Positions 9,355 through 24,128 of a stretch of DNA of 27,910 bases are shown here, in pieces. The DNA is taken from the IMG/VR virus record IMGVR_UViG_3300043464_002133, positions 1 to 27,910 of that record; one strand, written 5' to 3'. Source of the stretch: a virus. Positions within the stretch are counted from its first letter, which is position 1. Each line of letters starts with the position of its first letter. A program made the translations under genes and the position numbers. The notes below the pieces were generated by a model. That model saw only the letters and a list, made by a program, of their open reading frames with translations, did not search any database and was not told the origin of the DNA.

Positions 9355-9865
9355 GGGTGATGGCTCCGTTGATCAGGAGTCTTGCGACTTCTTCCCCCAC
9401 TGATCTGCGCTGTTCGGGGGTGGCGGCTGGAAGGTAGAGGATCTGGATGTGGCGTTCAAGACAGATGCGGTGAAGGGCGTCGACCACCAGCCATGGGTCC
9501 ACATCGAGCTGGCTTCTGGCCGTCCTGACCAGGTGGCCGATCGTCCCTTCAAGGATGAGTATCGGATGGGCGCACTCGGATCGCAGCCGGTCACAGGCCT
9601 TGACGAATCGCTCGCGACCAGTGGGGGTGAGCAGGTTCGAGAAGAGCTCGGGCAGGTGCTTCTTGCGCTCGATCAGGACCTTGGACTCGAAGCCTTCTAG
9701 GGCGTAGTCGCCGGTCTGTAATCGTTTCTTGACGACCGTAAGTGAAACGGTGCAGGACCGCTTGTCCGTAGGGACATGGGCATCGTCGAGCATGACGATG
9801 TTGGCCGGGAAGATGAGGGGCGTCTTCTCCCGGTCGTCCTGGAGGATGGTCCAGCTGCGCTTCAA
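9317..9865 (-). CDS. ERCC4-domain nuclease
   Basis: Starting at TTG 9865, which overlaps the previous stop as TTGA, the product is 182 residues. The ERCC4 (XPF/Mus81-like) signature is present in order: DDREK at residues 10-14, GDY at 52-54, and the metal-binding IERK at 65-68 with HLPEL after it. A helical remainder follows (FVKACDRLRSECAHPILILEG). Family members cut branched or flap DNA and in phages probably resolve replication or recombination intermediates. No helix-hairpin-helix domain is attached. Upstream in-frame starts inside the HTH gene are possible. Two dispersed repeat copies in opposite orientation lie in it. Confidence 0.8.
   Translation of the reverse strand: MKRSWTILQDDREKTPLIFPANIVMLDDAHVPTDKRSCTVSLTVVKKRLQTGDYALEGFESKVLIERKKHLPELFSNLLTPTGRERFVKACDRLRSECAHPILILEGTIGHLVRTARSQLDVDPWLVVDALHRICLERHIQILYLPAATPEQRRSVGEEVARLLINGAITHAERTTSDVPCG
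9394..9402 (-). repeat. Dispersed repeat copy 3 (CAGTGGGGG)
   Basis: On the minus strand the word reads GATCAGTGGGGG followed by AA, so the final T of the 10-base form is missing. It is coding in the ERCC4 gene as TCA GTG GGG G. Confidence 0.7.
9619..9628 (+). repeat. Dispersed repeat copy 4 (CAGTGGGGGT)
   Basis: Exact copy inside the ERCC4 gene, read there as ACC CCC ACT G. It is in the opposite orientation to copy 3. Confidence 0.75.
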
Positions 9866-10152
9866 CCGACGACAGCCTTGGTCTCCCGGTCCACCCGGGA
9901 CAGGATCTCCTTGATCCGGCACTCGGCGATGCGGAAGGCGGACGCGATCTCCGGGATGGTGAGGACCCGGGAAGCACGGACGATCTGCTTCTCGATGCGA
10001 CCGCCGGGAGTGACGATCGGGTTGGTGGGTACACCGTGGCGGCGGGCCAGGTCGAAGACCCGCTTGCGGGAGAGGCCGACCTCATCGGCTACCTCTGCTG
10101 CGTTGACTCCACGGTTGAGAAGGGCGACGACCTTGCGATGGTTGGCTTGCAT
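9862..10152 (-). CDS. Small helix-turn-helix DNA-binding protein
   Basis: The 96 residues carry two helix-turn-helix-like segments. The first is at about residues 17-38 (NAAEVADEVGLSRKRVFDLA); the second is at about 63-86 (LTIPEIASAFRIAECRIKEI). The pair resembles resolvase/Myb-like or Trp-repressor-like HTH repeats. It lies between the DNA polymerase and the ERCC4 nuclease with 3- and 4-base junctions, so it is part of the replication transcript. It could regulate that transcript or guide the nuclease. It would be one candidate to bind the dispersed CAGTGGGGG sites, but nothing in the sequence shows this. Confidence 0.65.
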   Translation of the reverse strand: MQANHRKVVALLNRGVNAAEVADEVGLSRKRVFDLARRHGVPTNPIVTPGGRIEKQIVRASRVLTIPEIASAFRIAECRIKEILSRVDRETKAVVG

Positions 10153-13651: not shown

Positions 13652-13767
13652 GCTGCACTCCCAAGAAGAAAGCCGAGGAGGAAGAACGAGAGCACCCATC
13701 CGAGGACGGACAGAACGATGAGCGCCTCGTAACGGAGGCGAGAGACGGAGACGTTGTCGGTGTTCAT
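13648..13767 (-). CDS. 39-residue single-span membrane protein
   Basis: The frame MNTDNVSVSRLRYEALIVLS continues into VLGWVLSFFLLGFLLGSAA, a short polar start with one long hydrophobic helix (about residues 15-37). The stop overlaps the next gene by 4 bases, which supports it being translated. No Shine-Dalgarno sequence precedes ATG 13767; the bases just upstream are repeat copy 8, and a hairpin lies only 19 bases away. No function can be given. Confidence 0.5.
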   Translation of the reverse strand: MNTDNVSVSRLRYEALIVLSVLGWVLSFFLLGFLLGSAA

Positions 13768-13772
13768 GGGAT

Positions 13773-13782
13773 CAGTGGGGGT
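13773..13782 (+). repeat. Dispersed repeat copy 8 (CAGTGGGGGT)
   Basis: Exact copy, extended to GATCAGTGGGGG. It occupies the place where the ribosome-binding site of the gene starting at 13767 would be expected. Confidence 0.75.
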
Positions 13783-13786
13783 GGGA

Positions 13787-13810
13787 GAGGGGCGGTCGCA
13801 TCGCCCCCTC
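13787..13810 (-). terminator. Hairpin after the gene ending at 13818
   Basis: GAGGGGCG at 13787-13794 pairs with CGCCCCCTC at 13802-13810 (one bulged C) around the loop GTCGCAT. On the minus strand it is followed by TCTCCC, a weak T-tract. The 11-base core CGGTCGCATCG is identical to that of the hairpin at 16028-16050. Confidence 0.55.
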
Positions 13811-13817
13811 GGTGCGG

Positions 13818-14360
13818 TCATCGGGACGGGGTGATGGAGATGGAGATGGAATCGATGACGCGCTTGGTCACCGAGCGGAGGTTGTCGTCGTCGTCGAAGT
13901 AGTCGGACACCTTGTCGGCGATGTCGGTGTCGAGGTCGAGGTTGTCGGAGACACGGTCCTTGACGGTGTCGACGATGGAGTCGGTGTCGATGTGGCAATC
14001 GACGGCGCGCTCGACGGCCATGCGGAAGTAGCGGGGCTCGGACTCGAGCTCCTCGCGGATGAAGTCCCGGGCGCTGTCCTCGTTGAGGAGGTACTTGGTG
14101 GACTCCTCGATGTCCTTGCGGATCACGTCGCCGAGGATGTCGGAGAGACGGGACTGGGCGTCGGTGTACGGGTGCGTGAGGGCGGAGGAGACGGTGCTGA
14201 GGATGTGGTCGGGGGACATGACGCGCTTGACCTCGGCGTTGGCGGCTTCGGTGACGCAGGCCCGGATCATGGAGATGATGGCGGGCGAGGTGAGGAAGGT
14301 GCGGAGTGCGGAGGCGATGGCGATGTCGTCGGTGAGATCGTTGTTGATGTGGTCGGACAT
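13818..14360 (-). CDS. Acidic helical hypothetical protein
   Basis: ATG 14360 follows a GAGACA element and gives 180 residues; an in-frame ATG at 14372 is possible. The sequence is strongly acidic and helical, with repeated Asp/Ser patterns (DTDSIVDTVKDRVSDNLDLD, then DIADKVSDYFDDDDNLRSVT). There is no membrane helix, Cys or known motif. The charge would suit a DNA-mimic or protein-binding role, but that is speculation. A terminator-like hairpin follows its stop. Confidence 0.6.
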   Translation of the reverse strand: MSDHINNDLTDDIAIASALRTFLTSPAIISMIRACVTEAANAEVKRVMSPDHILSTVSSALTHPYTDAQSRLSDILGDVIRKDIEESTKYLLNEDSARDFIREELESEPRYFRMAVERAVDCHIDTDSIVDTVKDRVSDNLDLDTDIADKVSDYFDDDDNLRSVTKRVIDSISISITPSR

Positions 14361-14381
14361 GGTCTGTCTCAATGGGTGGTG

Positions 14382-14480
14382 TCACGATGCGAGGATCGTG
14401 ACGAGGAGGTAGAGGATGAGGAAGATGTAGAACGTGGTTGGGTTGATGTAGCGGGTGGGGTCGGGGTCACGGTCGGACAA
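14382..14480 (-). CDS. 32-residue membrane microprotein, TTG start
   Basis: A TTG at 14480 directly follows the TGA of the previous gene, and an AAAGGAGG sequence lies nine bases upstream. The peptide has a polar start (SDRDPDPTRYINP) and one hydrophobic helix (FYIFLILYLLVTIL). It fills a gap between two genes that otherwise has no content. A similar very short membrane gene lies at 13648-13767. The strong ribosome-binding site and tight packing support it, but the length makes it uncertain. Confidence 0.5.
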   Translation of the reverse strand: MSDRDPDPTRYINPTTFYIFLILYLLVTILAS

Positions 14481-14840
14481 TCAAAGGTCCCTCCTTTCGT
14501 CCTGGCGTTCCTTCCACTCCTTCACGCCGTCGTCATCGAGGAGGAGAGGACGGCGGTCGGGATCGTCCTTGAGCCAGTGCTCGGTGACGTAGATGAGTTG
14601 GAAGTCGACCTTGAGACGGCGAACGATGACGGCGTAGATGGTGGACGGGAGCATGGACTCGAGGTCGTTGCCTTCCCGGTCGGTGATGGAGTCAACGTCG
14701 ATGACGATGTCGTTGTAGTTGTCGCGCTCGAAGCCGACGGTGACGAAGAGGGGGGCGGGATCGAGGAGGTACTCGCAGCGGAACACGACGTGCTCCTTGT
14801 TGGTCCAGTCCTCGATGACAAGCGGGAGAGGGTCAGGCAT
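14481..14840 (-). CDS. Hypothetical protein
   Basis: ATG 14840 has GGAG six bases upstream and gives 119 residues. The core is beta-rich and acidic (NKEHVVFRCEYLLDPAPLFV, then GFERDNYNDIVIDVDSITDR). It ends in a charged helix (KEWKERQDERRDL) whose codons contain the AAAGGAGG used by the next, very small gene. No family is recognised. It overlaps the GP88-like gene by 8 bases. Confidence 0.6.
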   Translation of the reverse strand: MPDPLPLVIEDWTNKEHVVFRCEYLLDPAPLFVTVGFERDNYNDIVIDVDSITDREGNDLESMLPSTIYAVIVRRLKVDFQLIYVTEHWLKDDPDRRPLLLDDDGVKEWKERQDERRDL

Positions 14841-17248: not shown

Positions 17249-17578
17249 GGGAAGATGGAGCGGACCCCAGCGGCGGGACCACCAGTCGGGGATGACACGG
17301 ACGATCTCGTCGCGGTCATTGAGGGTGTCCGAGGAGAAGCGGGAATCGCGGCGGGGCAGGAGGATGAAGACGGGGTGATGGCCGGCGGTGATGCCGATGC
17401 GACCACGCCGAGTGTGGGTGGTGCCGTCGGGGTAGGTGGTGCGGACCTCAACGCGGGGTCCGTTGTAGTAGGGTCGGAACTGCGGGGCAAGTCCGACCTC
17501 GGAGAGGCGGTCTCCGTGGATTACACGGAGCAGACGGAGCGATCCGTCGAGGGTCACTTGATTGGTTCTGCGGTCCAT
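17243..17578 (-). CDS. Small basic hypothetical protein
   Basis: The product is 111 residues from ATG 17578, which lies inside the end of the upstream gene (25-base overlap). It looks like a small beta-barrel: short strands separated by Gly and Asp (GPRVEVRTTYPDGTTHTRRG, then RIGITAGHHPVFILL) and many Arg. It is followed by a PDWWSRRWGPLH tail. The composition would suit nucleic-acid binding, but I cannot name a family. Its stop is part of the hairpin that ends the unit. Confidence 0.55.
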   Translation of the reverse strand: MDRRTNQVTLDGSLRLLRVIHGDRLSEVGLAPQFRPYYNGPRVEVRTTYPDGTTHTRRGRIGITAGHHPVFILLPRRDSRFSSDTLNDRDEIVRVIPDWWSRRWGPLHLPA

Positions 17579-17934
17579 GTGTCCTCCCTTTCGGTGCCGA
17601 GGAACTCGTCGGTGATGGGTTCGATGATGAGGTCGGTGGTTGAGTCGTAGCGCTGGGCAGCGAAGTCGATGGCCTGCCGCTCGTTCTCAGCGTCGACCTC
17701 GAAGACGAGGCGACGGTGCTCAGTCGAGACGCAGGTGACACGGTAGGTGATGGCGAGAGGTGCGTCGAGGTTGAGAAGGGTGAAGGTCCCGAGGTTCCAG
17801 TTGTCGGCGAAGACTCTTGGTTTCCCATCGCCAGGATCCAGGCCTGTGCGGATGGAGATGTTTGCCTTGGCACAGAGCGAGTGGATGACGGTGATGAGTT
17901 GGGGTTTGTCGAGTTGGAGGAGGATGTGGTTCAT
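17554..17934 (-). CDS. Hypothetical protein
   Basis: ATG 17934 gives 126 residues; the long open frame above it is a Ser/Pro/Arg-rich shadow of the gene at 18002-18652. The protein begins with a helix (LLQLDKPQLITVIHSLCAKA) and continues with strands (TYRVTCVSTEHRRLVFEVDA). A helix (ERQAIDFAAQRYDS) and a beta end (TTDLIIEPITDEFLG) follow. It resembles a small alpha/beta phage protein of unknown role. It starts 18 bases after the terminator of the previous gene, with no GAGACA leader. Confidence 0.55.
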   Translation of the reverse strand: MNHILLQLDKPQLITVIHSLCAKANISIRTGLDPGDGKPRVFADNWNLGTFTLLNLDAPLAITYRVTCVSTEHRRLVFEVDAENERQAIDFAAQRYDSTTDLIIEPITDEFLGTEREDTWTAEPIK

Positions 17935-17952
17935 GGTGGGTCCAAAGAGAAA

Positions 17953-17983
17953 CCCCCTGCACCAAACGACTCGGTGCAGGGGG
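17953..17983 (-). terminator. Rho-independent terminator
   Basis: CCCCCTGCACC and GGTGCAGGGGG form a perfect 11-bp stem with a 9-base loop. On the minus strand TTTCTCTTT follows. It ends the gene whose stop is at 18002. Confidence 0.8.
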
Positions 17984-18001
17984 CGGAGACAAATGGCGGG
18001 G

Positions 18002-19540: not shown

Positions 19541-19630
19541 GGTGTCTCCGTAGGTCGTGCCGCACCACGATGGTGGGTTGTTTGGGGGATGACGGGGTGC
19601 GGTTCCGTCACCGTTTGGAGGGAACAAAAA

Positions 19631-19662
19631 AAGGGACACGGCTCCGTAGAACCGTGTCCCTT
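19631..19662 (-). terminator. Rho-independent terminator with seven-T tail
   Basis: AAGGGACACGG and CCGTGTCCCTT form an 11-bp stem with a 10-base loop. On the minus strand a run of seven T (19626-19632) overlaps the stem end. It is the clearest terminator in the window and ends the gene whose stop is at 19681. Confidence 0.85.
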
Positions 19663-19680
19663 CTGGGTCACTCGTGGCTG

Positions 19681-19944
19681 TCACTTCTTCAGGTCGGCGA
19701 GCGCCTTCGCCACTGCTGCCGCCACGATGGCGGACAGGTCGGCGGTCATGTCGCCCTTGGGCGCCGACTTGCTGTTGCGATCCACGATCGCAAAAGCACG
19801 AGCGTCACCCGTCAGCTCCTTGGCGACCTCGCTGGGCAGCTGCTCCGCAGCGAAGCCCTCAGGCATCTGGATGATGGCGCAGATGCGGCTGCCGCTCTTG
19901 GTGCGGCGGGTCGTCTCAACGGTCTTGATCGTGAACTGGTCCAT
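19681..19944 (-). CDS. Small hypothetical protein, first gene after the candidate origin
   Basis: ATG 19944 is preceded by GGAGAGACAGC and gives 87 residues. A beta-rich first half (FTIKTVETTRRTKSGSRICA, then IIQMPEGFAAEQLP) is followed by a Lys/Ser segment and a C-terminal helix (TADLSAIVAAAVAKALADL). It is the first gene transcribed leftward from the 455-base non-coding region, so a promoter there would make it an early product. Function unknown. Confidence 0.6.
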   Translation of the reverse strand: MDQFTIKTVETTRRTKSGSRICAIIQMPEGFAAEQLPSEVAKELTGDARAFAIVDRNSKSAPKGDMTADLSAIVAAAVAKALADLKK

Positions 19945-20399
19945 GTGCTGTCTCTCCAATTTCTCAGCCGTCCCTATCTCAGGGGAACTCCCCCTGACGA
20001 CAGGACTCCCTCACCCCATGCAGCAACCGACCCGCCCCGAAACAGCGGGAAAGCCGCCCACTTCCCGCGCACTACCCGCGCTGTAACCCGCCGTACCGTA
20101 CCGTACAGACACCTAACAGACCCCCCCAAGCCCCCGCGCGGGCGTGTCACTCGACGGGGGAAAGACCATTTTTGTCTGGCAATTTGTGGTCAAATCCCCC
20201 CACTGACAGGTCCAAGCCAAGTGGACTGACAGGTTCCCGAAACCTCCCCGGGAACCCGATCCCGCGCCACGAGCTCCAAACGGCCCTTTCTCTCTCTTCT
20301 TCCTCCTACTGACAAGACTGACAGATATAGAGAGAGAGATAGGGGTAAGAGATATATAGAGAGATAGTTGTGGCCGAAAGCTGTCAGTCCGGTTTCCTG
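19945..20399. other. 455-base non-coding region beside the helicase gene
   Basis: No gene is supported here. The part next to 19944 holds small hairpins: CAGGGG with CCCCTG near 19978-19994, and CGGGAA with TTCCCG near 20046-20068. It also has three tandem CCGTA units at about 20091-20105. GGTTCCCG pairs with CGGGAACC near 20232-20257. A minus-strand TTGACC at 20188-20193 could be a -35 box, but the matching -10 (AATGGT, 17-base spacing) is poor. The right half carries the ACTGACAG repeats and purine tracts described separately. Confidence 0.6.
20197..20205 (-). repeat. Dispersed repeat copy 11 (CAGTGGGGG)
   Basis: Minus-strand copy with a sixth G. It is fused to an ACTGACAGG unit (together CCCCCACTGACAGG on the plus strand) and lies three bases before a minus-strand TTGACC. 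Confidence 0.7.
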
Positions 20400-20404
20400 T
20401 CAGC
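20202..20404. other. Candidate replication origin with ACTGACAG iterons
   Basis: Six copies of (A)CTGACA(G/A) occur in about 200 bases. On the plus strand they are at 20202, 20225, 20308 and 20317, the last two in direct tandem; on the minus strand they are at 20381-20388 and 20396-20404. Between them is a pyrimidine tract (about 20286-20307), then two AT/purine direct repeats, GATATAGAGAGAGAGATAG (20324-20342) and GATATATAGAGAGATAG (20351-20367). The TCTCTCT and AGAGAGA tracts could pair around the tandem iterons. Clustered short repeats, AT-rich DNA and the adjacent helicase gene are typical of an origin, but a regulatory region is also possible. Confidence 0.5.
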
Positions 20405-21827
20405 CCAGATCGTCCTCTTGGTCCTTCTTCAGCGAAAGGCCCCCCAACGCCCGCGTACCTTCGGCACCTTTCCTGATCCTGCTGAGATCCCAGCTGCTCT
20501 CCGCCACAATTTTCATCATCAGCTGGTTGTCAGCCACGTGCATCTTCACGTTATTGGCCCTGCACCAGTCCTTCCACTCCCGCCGCACCAGGTCGTTCGC
20601 GACCGCCCCCTCCTTGTTCCGGACGAACCGGGCCTCCAGGAAGTAATCGAACGGGTTGTTCGCCAGGTGGTAGTCCTTGACCACCCGCATCCCGCCATCA
20701 GTGGGGGTGAACTTCTCTCCGTCCGGAGCCGCCTCCAGCTTGATCGCCCCCCGGAGGGCCCAGTACGCGATCCCGGGCAGCTCACCCTTCAGCACGTCCA
20801 TCAGGTTGTGCTGCTCCTTGCCCTCGAAGCTCCGGTCGAACGGCAGCACCAGCATCTTCCCGCTCAACCCACGACCCTTGTTCGGCAGCTGCGGGATCTC
20901 GTTCGACTGGACCCACGGCGCCGCGTTCACGACCACGTTCCGCATCTGCCGCTTGTACTTCGCATTGATTGAGATCGGGTCCCTTCCGAGCACGTTCTTC
21001 AGGACCCGCACCGCCACCTCGCCCTCTCGGGAATCGAGTTCACTGACCTCCGAGATGCACAACACCCTCGCGAACTCTAGCCCATCCAGCCCGAAGTTCC
21101 CCGCGATCTCGTCCAAGCTCGTGCCCACGAACCCGGTCCCGCCCACCAACCACCGCATCACCGTGCTGATCGTTCCCTTGCCGGCCCTGATCTTCCCGTG
21201 GAACAGCATCCACTTCGCGTACCTTCGATGACTCATCATCGAGTAGCCCATCCACCGCTGCAGCAACTCCTTCCAGAGCGTATCTCCGCCGCTCCACTCC
21301 TCTACGCACTTTGTCCACCGCGGACACTCCACAAACGGATCGAGATCCACGTCCACGACGCACGGATCAAACCACTCCGGCGTCCGGGGCACACACACCA
21401 AAGCCCCCGTCTCCGCACTCGCCTTCACGTCCACGATCACGTCCCGGAACGACACGGAACAGTGGGGGTCGCTCAGCCGATCCCGGTAATCCGGGCACAG
21501 CCACTGCGGAACCTCCGCCCCCGCGACCCGGCACAAGGCCTGCATCGCCCGCACGATCCCGTTCACCTTGAACTCCGTCGGACCATACCGCTCCACCACG
21601 AGCCCGTTCGGGTCATCGCTCACGTGCAGGTCCTCGGTCCAGCGCCAGACCGCGTCCTCTAGCCACTGCTGGTCCCGCTGCACCCACTTGCCGCCGTACC
21701 ACTCGAACAGCCGGCCCTGCACCTCCTTCAGCCCCATGCCGTCCTCGAAGCACACCTTGAGCATCGCCCTCGCGACCTTCATTGGTTCCGTCGTTCTCAA
21801 CGGGTTTTGTTGTGTACCCAGTGTCAT
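20400..21827 (-). CDS. SF3 (D5/P4-like) replicative helicase, possible primase-helicase
   Basis: The product is 475 residues. Walker A, GKIRAGKGTI, is at 211-220; a Walker B-like strand, RVLCISE, is at 254-260; an SF3 motif C-like NAAPWVQSNEIPQL is at 301-314. KGRGLSGKMLVLPFDRSF follows. A D5_N-like helical segment with WKELLQRWMGYSMM precedes the ATPase. No clear primase active site is visible in the first 150 residues, so it may be a helicase only. It would unwind phage DNA for the family A polymerase. AAGGA lies before ATG 21827. The divergent gene starts only 27 bases beyond. Two repeat copies lie inside. Confidence 0.85.
   Translation of the reverse strand: MTLGTQQNPLRTTEPMKVARAMLKVCFEDGMGLKEVQGRLFEWYGGKWVQRDQQWLEDAVWRWTEDLHVSDDPNGLVVERYGPTEFKVNGIVRAMQALCRVAGAEVPQWLCPDYRDRLSDPHCSVSFRDVIVDVKASAETGALVCVPRTPEWFDPCVVDVDLDPFVECPRWTKCVEEWSGGDTLWKELLQRWMGYSMMSHRRYAKWMLFHGKIRAGKGTISTVMRWLVGGTGFVGTSLDEIAGNFGLDGLEFARVLCISEVSELDSREGEVAVRVLKNVLGRDPISINAKYKRQMRNVVVNAAPWVQSNEIPQLPNKGRGLSGKMLVLPFDRSFEGKEQHNLMDVLKGELPGIAYWALRGAIKLEAAPDGEKFTPTDGGMRVVKDYHLANNPFDYFLEARFVRNKEGAVANDLVRREWKDWCRANNVKMHVADNQLMMKIVAESSWDLSRIRKGAEGTRALGGLSLKKDQEDDLG
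20699..20708 (+). repeat. Dispersed repeat copy 12 (CAGTGGGGGT)
   Basis: Exact copy in the helicase gene, read there as ACC CCC ACT G (Thr-Pro-Thr). Confidence 0.75.
21460..21469 (+). repeat. Dispersed repeat copy 13 (CAGTGGGGGT)
   Basis: Exact copy in the helicase gene, read as xAC CCC CAC TG (Asp-Pro-His-Cys), a different codon phase from copy 12. Confidence 0.75.
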
Positions 21828-21854
21828 CTGATTATCCTTCCAGCAGGAGATACC

Positions 21855-24128
21855 ATGGCCCAGCCGCTTCGCAGCATGAACCCTTCCACTCCCTTTGGTC
21901 GCGAGAAGAACGCTCTTCTTCAGACCGACCTCCGGGATCCGAACGCCTTCCTGGGCCAGTTGATCGCCCGGAACGCCGCTGTTTCCGCGCCGGCAGCCAC
22001 GAAGCCCGAGAAGGCCAAGCCCCAGCCGCAGGCACAGCCTGCCACGCCACCTGCGACTCCTACTTCTCCGACTCCGCAGCCTCCCCAGTCGCGCCCGACC
22101 CCTCAGCTCGCCACGTCTTTCGACGCTCAGCGCAAGGCGGCCCGCGACGCATACGACGCCGAACTGGCCGGCTTCTCGCAGCGTTCACAACAAGGCAACC
22201 AAGTCACCCCGCTCGAGCAGAAGCGCGCACTGGAGCGCTACAACAACCAGCTCGGCCGGATCAATGCCATCGAAAACAAGGGGATCAGGAAGAAGCGCGG
22301 CGAACAGCTGCGGAGCGAACGACTTGCACGTGAGAACTACGCCGACGAACGAGCTGGTGCGATCTTAGACGAATCGACAAAGCGCTTGACTTCGTTGTTC
22401 GATTCTACACCAAAGCCTCCGGCTGTCAACATCCCGGGCCCCGCAGATCGCGCCGCGATGGCCGAACAAATGGCCGCGAACGACGCACAGCGCGCAGCCG
22501 CCGACCGTCTTCCGACTCCCGCCACTCCAGCCCCTACCCAGCCTAGCTGGCTGGACACCGCCATCTCGCGCACGATCAACCTGCTTCAGGCGGGGATGGC
22601 GCGTACCCCCACTGCTCGGTTGTCCGATGTCGCCGCCCCAGCCGCCCCAGCTGCAGCACCCCAGACCAGTGGGGGTGGCATGCCAGAACCGGCCCAGCGC
22701 TACGGTCTGGATCCAGGCGTCAACAAGGTCATCTCCAACCTCTACTCCGGCAACGTCGCCCCGGGCAACCTGGGCATCGACCAGCTCGGGGAGCTCATGC
22801 GCGGCGCGACCCCGCAGCAGCTTGCTTCGCTTTACGACGGGCTGCAGGCTCTTCCGCCCGAGCAGCAGAAGGCTGCGCTCCGGCAGATGATCGAGCAGAA
22901 CCAGCAGCTGAACGTCAATCTGGGTCAGCCCCCGAAGGTCACTCCGGAACAGGCTGCGGAGATCGACCGGCTGAATCCTCCGGCGTCGTTCTTCTCCATG
23001 GACGGCTTCAACAACCTGGCCCAGGGATTCACCGACCTGACCCAGAACCCAGTGCTTCAGACGATCGCTGGCCCCGGCGGTCTTCTCGGTACCAGCCTGC
23101 CGGCCGACGCCATCGCCCGCGAGCGAGCCATGGCAACCACTCCGGAACAGCTCCGTGCGATCCAGGCCCGCGAGGCCCAGGCCGGGATGCAGGGCGCGCT
23201 CCTCGACGCCCTTGGTGCTGGCGCCGCCATGCGGGGCAGTGCCGCCCCCAACATGACGGCCCCCGGCACCCGCGTCATCGACAACCCCACCCTCCGCGGA
23301 GGTACACCTACCAGAGCCACCCTCCCAACATCGAATCAAGGTAATGTTCGTATTACCCCTGGCAATCCTGGCCAGGTCGTCGACATGCCGGCACCCCAGG
23401 CCATGCCGGGCGTCACGCCCCGCGATCTGCCGACAAACACCGGTGGACCCCGCCAGGGACCAATGCGCCCCATCGGCCCTGTGCAGACGGCCGACGAAAG
23501 CTTCACGGCTCCGACCGTCAGGGTCAAGAATGTTCCGGGGGACATCAACAATCCCACGGCCCAGCGCCGCACTGAGCAAGGCGGTCGTGTTCCGGCGTCT
23601 CCCACCGGAAGAGAGCAGGGCCCAGGCACTGCCGCAGCCGAGGGCCAGATGCGTGTCCGTAGGTCGGACGCCCGTGTTCGCGAGCTCCGGGAACAGGATC
23701 GAGTCGCCGACATCATCAACAACCTGATCGATCGCGGTGTTCTCCAGCCCAACCAGCCTGCCACCAGCACCCCCGAAGCCAAGCCCGCCCCCGCCCCGGC
23801 TCCGGCCACCGAAACGGCTCTTGCTGAAATTGCCAAGCCGGCAACACCGGCCCCAGCAGCTGAAGCTCCGATCCCGCTCGCTGAACCCAGCGGCACCACG
23901 GTCGGCCGCAACACAGTCCAGGCCACCACGGTCGAACCACGCTCCACCCCGGCTCCTGGCCAGAAGGCCCAGTCCCGCAAGTCCGTCACCGAAGGCCTCA
24001 AGGCCTACGGAACCAAGGTCGTCGAGGATACCCGTGCACTCCTTGCCAAGGATCGCAAGGGCCAGGTCACCGACTCCGACGTTCTTGAGTACCTGCAGGG
24101 CCTGCTCCCCACCAAGGAATCCAAGTGA
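21855..24128 (+). CDS. Large Pro/Ala/Gln-rich probable virion protein
   Basis: ATG 21855 has GGAG five bases upstream and gives 757 residues; the open frame further upstream would overlap the divergent helicase start. The protein has low complexity: Pro/Ala/Gln/Thr stretches (residues about 55-90, 220-270 and 600-680) alternate with helical segments (RYNNQLGRINAIENKGIRK, then QLASLYDGLQALPPEQQ). Such composition is common in phage scaffold-like or internal proteins. No enzyme motif is seen. It begins the plus-strand block and overlaps the next gene by 4 bases. Two repeat copies in opposite orientation lie 52 bases apart in it. Confidence 0.65.
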   Translation: MAQPLRSMNPSTPFGREKNALLQTDLRDPNAFLGQLIARNAAVSAPAATKPEKAKPQPQAQPATPPATPTSPTPQPPQSRPTPQLATSFDAQRKAARDAYDAELAGFSQRSQQGNQVTPLEQKRALERYNNQLGRINAIENKGIRKKRGEQLRSERLARENYADERAGAILDESTKRLTSLFDSTPKPPAVNIPGPADRAAMAEQMAANDAQRAAADRLPTPATPAPTQPSWLDTAISRTINLLQAGMARTPTARLSDVAAPAAPAAAPQTSGGGMPEPAQRYGLDPGVNKVISNLYSGNVAPGNLGIDQLGELMRGATPQQLASLYDGLQALPPEQQKAALRQMIEQNQQLNVNLGQPPKVTPEQAAEIDRLNPPASFFSMDGFNNLAQGFTDLTQNPVLQTIAGPGGLLGTSLPADAIARERAMATTPEQLRAIQAREAQAGMQGALLDALGAGAAMRGSAAPNMTAPGTRVIDNPTLRGGTPTRATLPTSNQGNVRITPGNPGQVVDMPAPQAMPGVTPRDLPTNTGGPRQGPMRPIGPVQTADESFTAPTVRVKNVPGDINNPTAQRRTEQGGRVPASPTGREQGPGTAAAEGQMRVRRSDARVRELREQDRVADIINNLIDRGVLQPNQPATSTPEAKPAPAPAPATETALAEIAKPATPAPAAEAPIPLAEPSGTTVGRNTVQATTVEPRSTPAPGQKAQSRKSVTEGLKAYGTKVVEDTRALLAKDRKGQVTDSDVLEYLQGLLPTKESK
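22605..22614 (-). repeat. Dispersed repeat copy 14 (CAGTGGGGGT)
   Basis: Exact copy; the plus strand reads ACC CCC ACT G (Thr-Pro-Thr) in the Pro-rich gene. It forms an inverted pair with copy 15. Confidence 0.75.
22667..22676 (+). repeat. Dispersed repeat copy 15 (CAGTGGGGGT)
   Basis: Exact copy; the coding strand reads xxC AGT GGG GGT (Ser-Gly-Gly) in the same gene as copy 14. Confidence 0.75.

Follow-up and report, generated by a model that had tools for sequence, protein, structure and literature searches.

The alpha protein of satellite phage P4 is a helicase of the TIGR01613 family that acts with an iteron origin (ori and crr), and in SaPI origins the iterons flank an AT-rich core on both sides. 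The SF3 hexamers of SV40 T-antigen and papillomavirus E1 sit next to AT-rich DNA, on sites of opposite orientation. The helicases of SaPI and SCC elements bind iterons that lie directly 3' of their own genes, and SCC Cch2 contacts such iterons via its C-terminal domain (PMC7581432). The origin of the archaeal plasmid pRN1 sits downstream of its SF3 replication gene (PMC4234260).

The locus described here lies on a 27,910-base IMG/VR virus contig, analysed at full length (the window), from a tailed uncultured phage. Judged from its sequence, the locus is probably the replication origin of this phage (probability around 0.84), as had been proposed in an earlier note on this DNA; the iterons are kept in relatives, the layout outlasts a change of the iteron word and a P4-family helicase gene lies directly upstream. 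By analogy, the best reading is that the locus works most like a staphylococcal SaPI/SCC origin, with the adjacent helicase binding and melting it. With SaPI Rep-ori and SCCmec Cch/Cch2 it shares a presumed initiator helicase of the P4/D5 family and short iterons immediately past the 3' end of the helicase gene, and the iterons are found on both sides of an AT-rich core, as in SaPIs. It differs from these systems in that it belongs to a full-size phage and has other iteron words, a 2+2 layout with a 9-bp period and an extra conserved element. P4 alpha is of the same helicase family and also has an iteron origin, but it carries a fused N-terminal primase half that the phage helicase lacks, and the iterons differ. 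The likeness to pRN1 concerns the location downstream of an SF3 replication gene and, maybe, the involvement of a stem-loop; pRN1, however, depends on a stem-loop of 100 nt and is without recognised iterons, whereas here the iterons dominate and the stem is weak. Finally, the SV40 and papillomavirus origins share the SF3 helicase and the oppositely oriented sites beside AT-rich DNA, but their sequences are unrelated and the origin-binding domain of T-antigen and E1 is N-terminal rather than C-terminal.

The nature of the phage could be derived in part from its relatives. Most of the window is included, in permuted order, in the near-identical G001 (54,059 bases). The relatives G005 and G009 close into circles, the former with a 99-base exact repeat at its ends and the latter with ends that are near-identical over about 245 bases, and the phage genome is therefore considered to be circle-mapping, with a size of about 51-55 kb. 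The minus strand of the window carries replication and recombination genes, including those for a family-A DNA polymerase, a PD-(D/E)XK exonuclease, a Sak4-like AAA protein, an ERCC4 nuclease and a uracil-DNA glycosylase, and the terminase gene in G001 is on the plus strand. Among 50,697 sequenced phage records there was no match to the terminase, and a DNA search of phage records gave no match either. A prophage or host was sought in genome contigs and none was found.

The iterons and their surroundings

Six repeats had been claimed for the region, two of them inverted, and these were indeed recovered (Table 1). The window contains four exact copies of ACTGACAG, all within 20202-20388, where 1.05 would be expected by chance for the whole window, and two 7/8 matches bring the set to six, spanning 20202-20404. 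The pair at 20308/20317, described before as an exact tandem, is a tandem with a 9-bp period, but the exactness is limited to ACTGACA. This pair is followed by an AT-rich core of 56 bp and then by the two inverted copies, which have a period of 16 bp and not 9 bp.

Table 1. Coordinates of the features in and around the candidate origin (window positions; a dot marks features given no strand).
Feature	Position	Strand	Remark
Non-coding region, candidate origin and leader	19960..20399	.	From helicase stop to next leftward gene
Second conserved element: AAATTGCCAGACAAAAATGGTCTTTCCCCC, 20 nt, GGGGGCTT	20128..20185	-	One per genome
CAGTGGGGG copy of genome-wide motif	20197..20205	-	Adjoins iteron at 20202; probably incidental to origin
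Iteron 6, ACTGACAG exact, accessory (proposed)	20202..20209	+	Abuts CAGTGGGGG copy
Iteron 5, ACTGACAG exact, accessory (proposed)	20225..20232	+	
Pyrimidine tract	20284..20307	+	Imperfectly complementary to purine-rich core side (inverted repeat I1)
Iteron 4, ACTGACAA (7/8)	20308..20315	+	First member of tandem pair
Iteron 3, ACTGACAG exact	20317..20324	+	Second member of 9-bp-period tandem pair
AT-rich purine/pyrimidine-asymmetric core, 56 bp, candidate unwinding element	20325..20380	.	Between inverted iteron pairs
Iteron 2, ACTGACAG exact	20381..20388	-	In relatives, GGACTGACAG or near-match just past helicase stop
Iteron 1, GCTGACAG (7/8)	20397..20404	-	Overlaps helicase stop codon
Presumed initiator gene, P4-family/SF3-type helicase, 475 aa	20400..21827	-	Iteron region directly 3'

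The core is the AT-richest part of the window, the 55-mers highest in AT having their starts at 20304-20325. Of the features reported before, the pyrimidine tract was found, as were direct repeats of purines at 20323-20342 and 20348-20367, which are 85% alike. The tract and the purine-rich side of the core could pair into a stem that encloses the tandem iterons; compared to shuffled sequences, the pairing was slightly above in most cases (combined z -4.3 for ten genomes) and it was absent in G007. The claim that this is the only long non-coding stretch of the window was too strong, because conserved ORFs are also separated by gaps at 13700-14832 and 17491-18001. The segment 20230-20367 is the sole stretch above 20 bp that is free of ORFs of at least 60 aa on both strands. 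An antisense ORF (19570-20229) was discarded, as its codon-position GC (0.74/0.55/0.59) lacks the high third position of supported genes here. Within the region we found neither a consensus sigma-70 promoter nor a terminator, and a search against Rfam returned no family, also at a permissive threshold.

The region directly follows the stop codon of the SF3 helicase gene named in the earlier note, whose product scores 112.4 bits against TIGR01613 (curated cut-off 108.7) and also matches PF19263. The matches to PHROG DNA primases begin mid-profile (position 331 of 772), and the N-terminal primase half is missing. The only meaningful sequence match to a solved structure was to a DNA primase chain, 7ola (E 3.6e-8), which we take to be SaPI5 Rep. 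For the C-terminal domain, which shows a conserved pattern, Pox_D5 recurs as a match, always below the cut-off. Structure models of the whole helicase and of the C-terminal domain separately were of poor quality. A large plus-strand ORF (21807-24128) that overlaps the start of the helicase gene is poorly conserved and has no family match.

The abutment of the leftmost iteron and a CAGTGGGGG copy is real, but the meeting of two motif systems read into it is probably incidental: few close relatives share the arrangement, and a meaningful fusion was rejected because it is common only to G001, G002 and G014. No other 9-mer is as over-represented in the window clade as CAGTGGGGG(T), which has 154 copies in five genomes and 16 in the window (e.g. 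at 1817, 4494, 11016, 20699 and 21460). The copies are mainly intragenic and have a strand bias of about 2:1 around the whole circle, and two of them, within the helicase gene, hold the same places in the divergent G005. In distant relatives other G-rich words are over-represented (GAGTGGGGG in G019 and G017, CTGGTGGGG in G024 and TTCTGGGGG in G022). The motif resembles a Chi-like or DNA-processing signal, with a word that changes between clades.

Conservation of the layout and turnover of the iteron word

The close relatives comprised thirteen loci with helicases that are 84-100% identical. Recurrent features in the alignment of their 3' regions are a GGACTGACAG-like box just past the stop, a pyrimidine/AT-rich stretch, a purine tract and, as an inverted tandem pair, TGTCAGTC(T)TGTCAGT; more iterons lie beyond. 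Conservation of the iterons had been put forward as a check by the earlier note itself, and most copies are kept, persisting amid DNA that otherwise aligns poorly, with few retained in G007. In seven related contigs of 41-54 kb (G001-G006 and G009), 16 of the 17 exact copies of ACTGACAG are located in the non-coding region, no more than about 250 bp past the 3' end of the helicase gene. The lone outlier lies inside the helicase gene of G006, a contig that ends about 70 bases past the helicase stop. The six-base core CTGACA was encountered 41 times in 11 related regions, against 1.2 expected and at most 6 in 2000 shuffles.

Distant relatives were found by a portal-protein search (portal identity 51-58%), and ten non-redundant loci, of 36 to 59% GC and with helicases 46-52% identical to that of the window, were examined for two tandem 7-mers, a spacer of 30-75 and two inverted 7-mers. 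With the lags left free at 8-10, both proved to be exactly 9 in seven of the ten loci (L140, L141, L142, L143, L146, L147 and L148). The same 9/9 plan is present in G005 of the window clade, with a perfect score of 42/42, and no shuffle out of 60 attained even one of the eight scores. The search revealed no clear 9-bp plan in L144, L149 and L150. In loci with the plan the spacer measures 51-59 bp, but 67 in L142, and the core is AT-rich except in L143 (0.49). A genome-wide scan at lag 9 ranked the locus best in its contig for G005, G022, G025, G017 and G018, and tied for G019. In the nearest relatives the rigid 2+2 search did not single out the region, since the period of one pair is 16 bp there or a copy has been lost from it. 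The plan stands downstream of the helicase gene; between the two, distant relatives may have one small ORF.

The layout persists where the word has changed. The word is ACTGACAG in the window clade and TGGTAC, CCCGGCA or CGGTTCA in distant relatives, and it broadly matches the helicase tree, with the exception of L141, which has a TGGTAC-type word, yet a helicase that groups with that of L142. Distant homologues occur in two cultured phages, Vibrio phage 1.055.O and Streptomyces phage Yara, where no non-coding stretch lies 3' of the gene; the iteron arrangement is therefore not shared by the whole helicase family.

A second element is conserved on the helicase strand. In the window clade it is found about 180-230 bp past the stop and consists of AAATTGCCAGACAAAAATGGTCTTTCCCCC, exactly 20 nt and GGGGGC; apart from the repeated ends of G009 it is single in each genome. 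Five distant loci contain a cognate (roughly AAAT(T)CCTAGAC-GGATCGGTGTTTC, about 24 nt, GGGG(G)C), and the shared form is AAAT-CCTAGAC-GGT-TTTC, about 24 nt, GGGGGC. The element matched no Rfam family. Considering that the pairs never vary within the clade and that distant relatives no longer have the C5 run, a C5/G5 hairpin is unlikely. It is possible that the element is a promoter, leader or priming site. Ahead of the first leftward gene, most relatives (L003, L004, L006, L008, L012 and L057) have the leader motif GTAAGTCC...CAAGGGTTTACG, for which a 10-bp RNA hairpin is possible in L003. The motif is missing in the window and G001, and is replaced by the inverted repeat TCAGGGG-GAGTT-CCCCTGA (19979-19997).

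Alternative explanations and GC skew

The repeats might be operators, with a phage repressor or activator on ACTGACAG controlling the promoter of the leftward replication operon. This operon must start in or near the region, which is situated ahead of the leftward genes, and the second element could be the promoter or leader; small helix-turn-helix proteins are encoded by the phage as well (e.g. 9862-10152). The iterons, however, crowd the helicase stop codon, more than 200 bp away from the next gene, and other promoters lack these sites. As the 2+2 plan, with its inverted pairs on either side of a core of about 51-59 bp, resembles an origin and the word changes along the helicase tree, we regard control of the operon as an improbable role, although one protein could use the iterons both as operator and as origin sites.

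The cumulative GC skew of five near-complete contigs of the window clade has its maximum at the region's left edge, 0.5-1.1 kb leftward of the helicase stop, and in each of them the skew range exceeds that of all block shuffles. In the AT-rich relatives G019, G022 and G025 the same locus is near the cumulative minimum. In the large contigs examined the skew turns at or near the locus with varying polarity, and the sign of the extremum is opposite in GC-rich (G001-G005) and AT-rich (G019, G022, G025) members of one phage family. The skew check of the earlier note was therefore borne out as to the turning point and not as to the expected minimum, which is what a conventional bidirectional origin would show. 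Given that there is a maximum here and a minimum in the AT-rich relatives, the skew is weak evidence, and it was dropped as proof of an origin; the turning point is consistent with one, its sign being uninformative. Coding strand alone fails to explain the skew, because the helicase gene has a skew opposite to that of the left-hand genes, though it is on the same strand. The reversed polarity here, as compared to the normal one in the AT-rich relatives, may be due to coding bias.

A cumulative GC-skew maximum usually marks a terminus, and several contigs end near the locus, but a replication terminus or other DNA-processing site (partition, recombination, packaging) is very improbable considering the near-minimum at the same locus in AT-rich relatives, the iterons around an AT-rich core beside an initiator gene, which are not normal for termini, and the circles formed by G005 and G009, whose ends are at different places.

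Proposed initiation and its implications

For the locus as an origin, we propose that the helicase encoded immediately upstream would bind the iterons, probably via its C-terminal domain. The inverted pairs 20308/20317 and 20381/20397 would serve as assembly sites for two oppositely facing hexamers, which would melt the AT-rich core between the pairs. Two forks would then start, leading to bidirectional replication, and would be extended by the family-A DNA polymerase of the phage, while the iterons at 20202 and 20225 may serve as accessory sites. A more far-reaching suggestion, which we put forward tentatively and consider rather doubtful, is that of a phage family with a single origin blueprint. 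A tandem and an inverted pair of iterons would enclose a core of about 51-59 bp, with a bipartite element, its halves about 24 nt apart, further downstream; the word would have been replaced repeatedly alongside the DNA-reading domain of the helicase, and the bipartite element would be a new essential part of initiation, e.g. a strand-specific priming or polymerase-loading site.

The locus represents a concrete candidate origin for a phage family that has no terminase match in the 50,697 sequenced phage records. Furthermore, the relatives provide initiator-origin pairs that form a natural series, with fixed spacing and a changing recognised word, so that origin recognition by a self-loading helicase and the evolution of such specificities become accessible to study.
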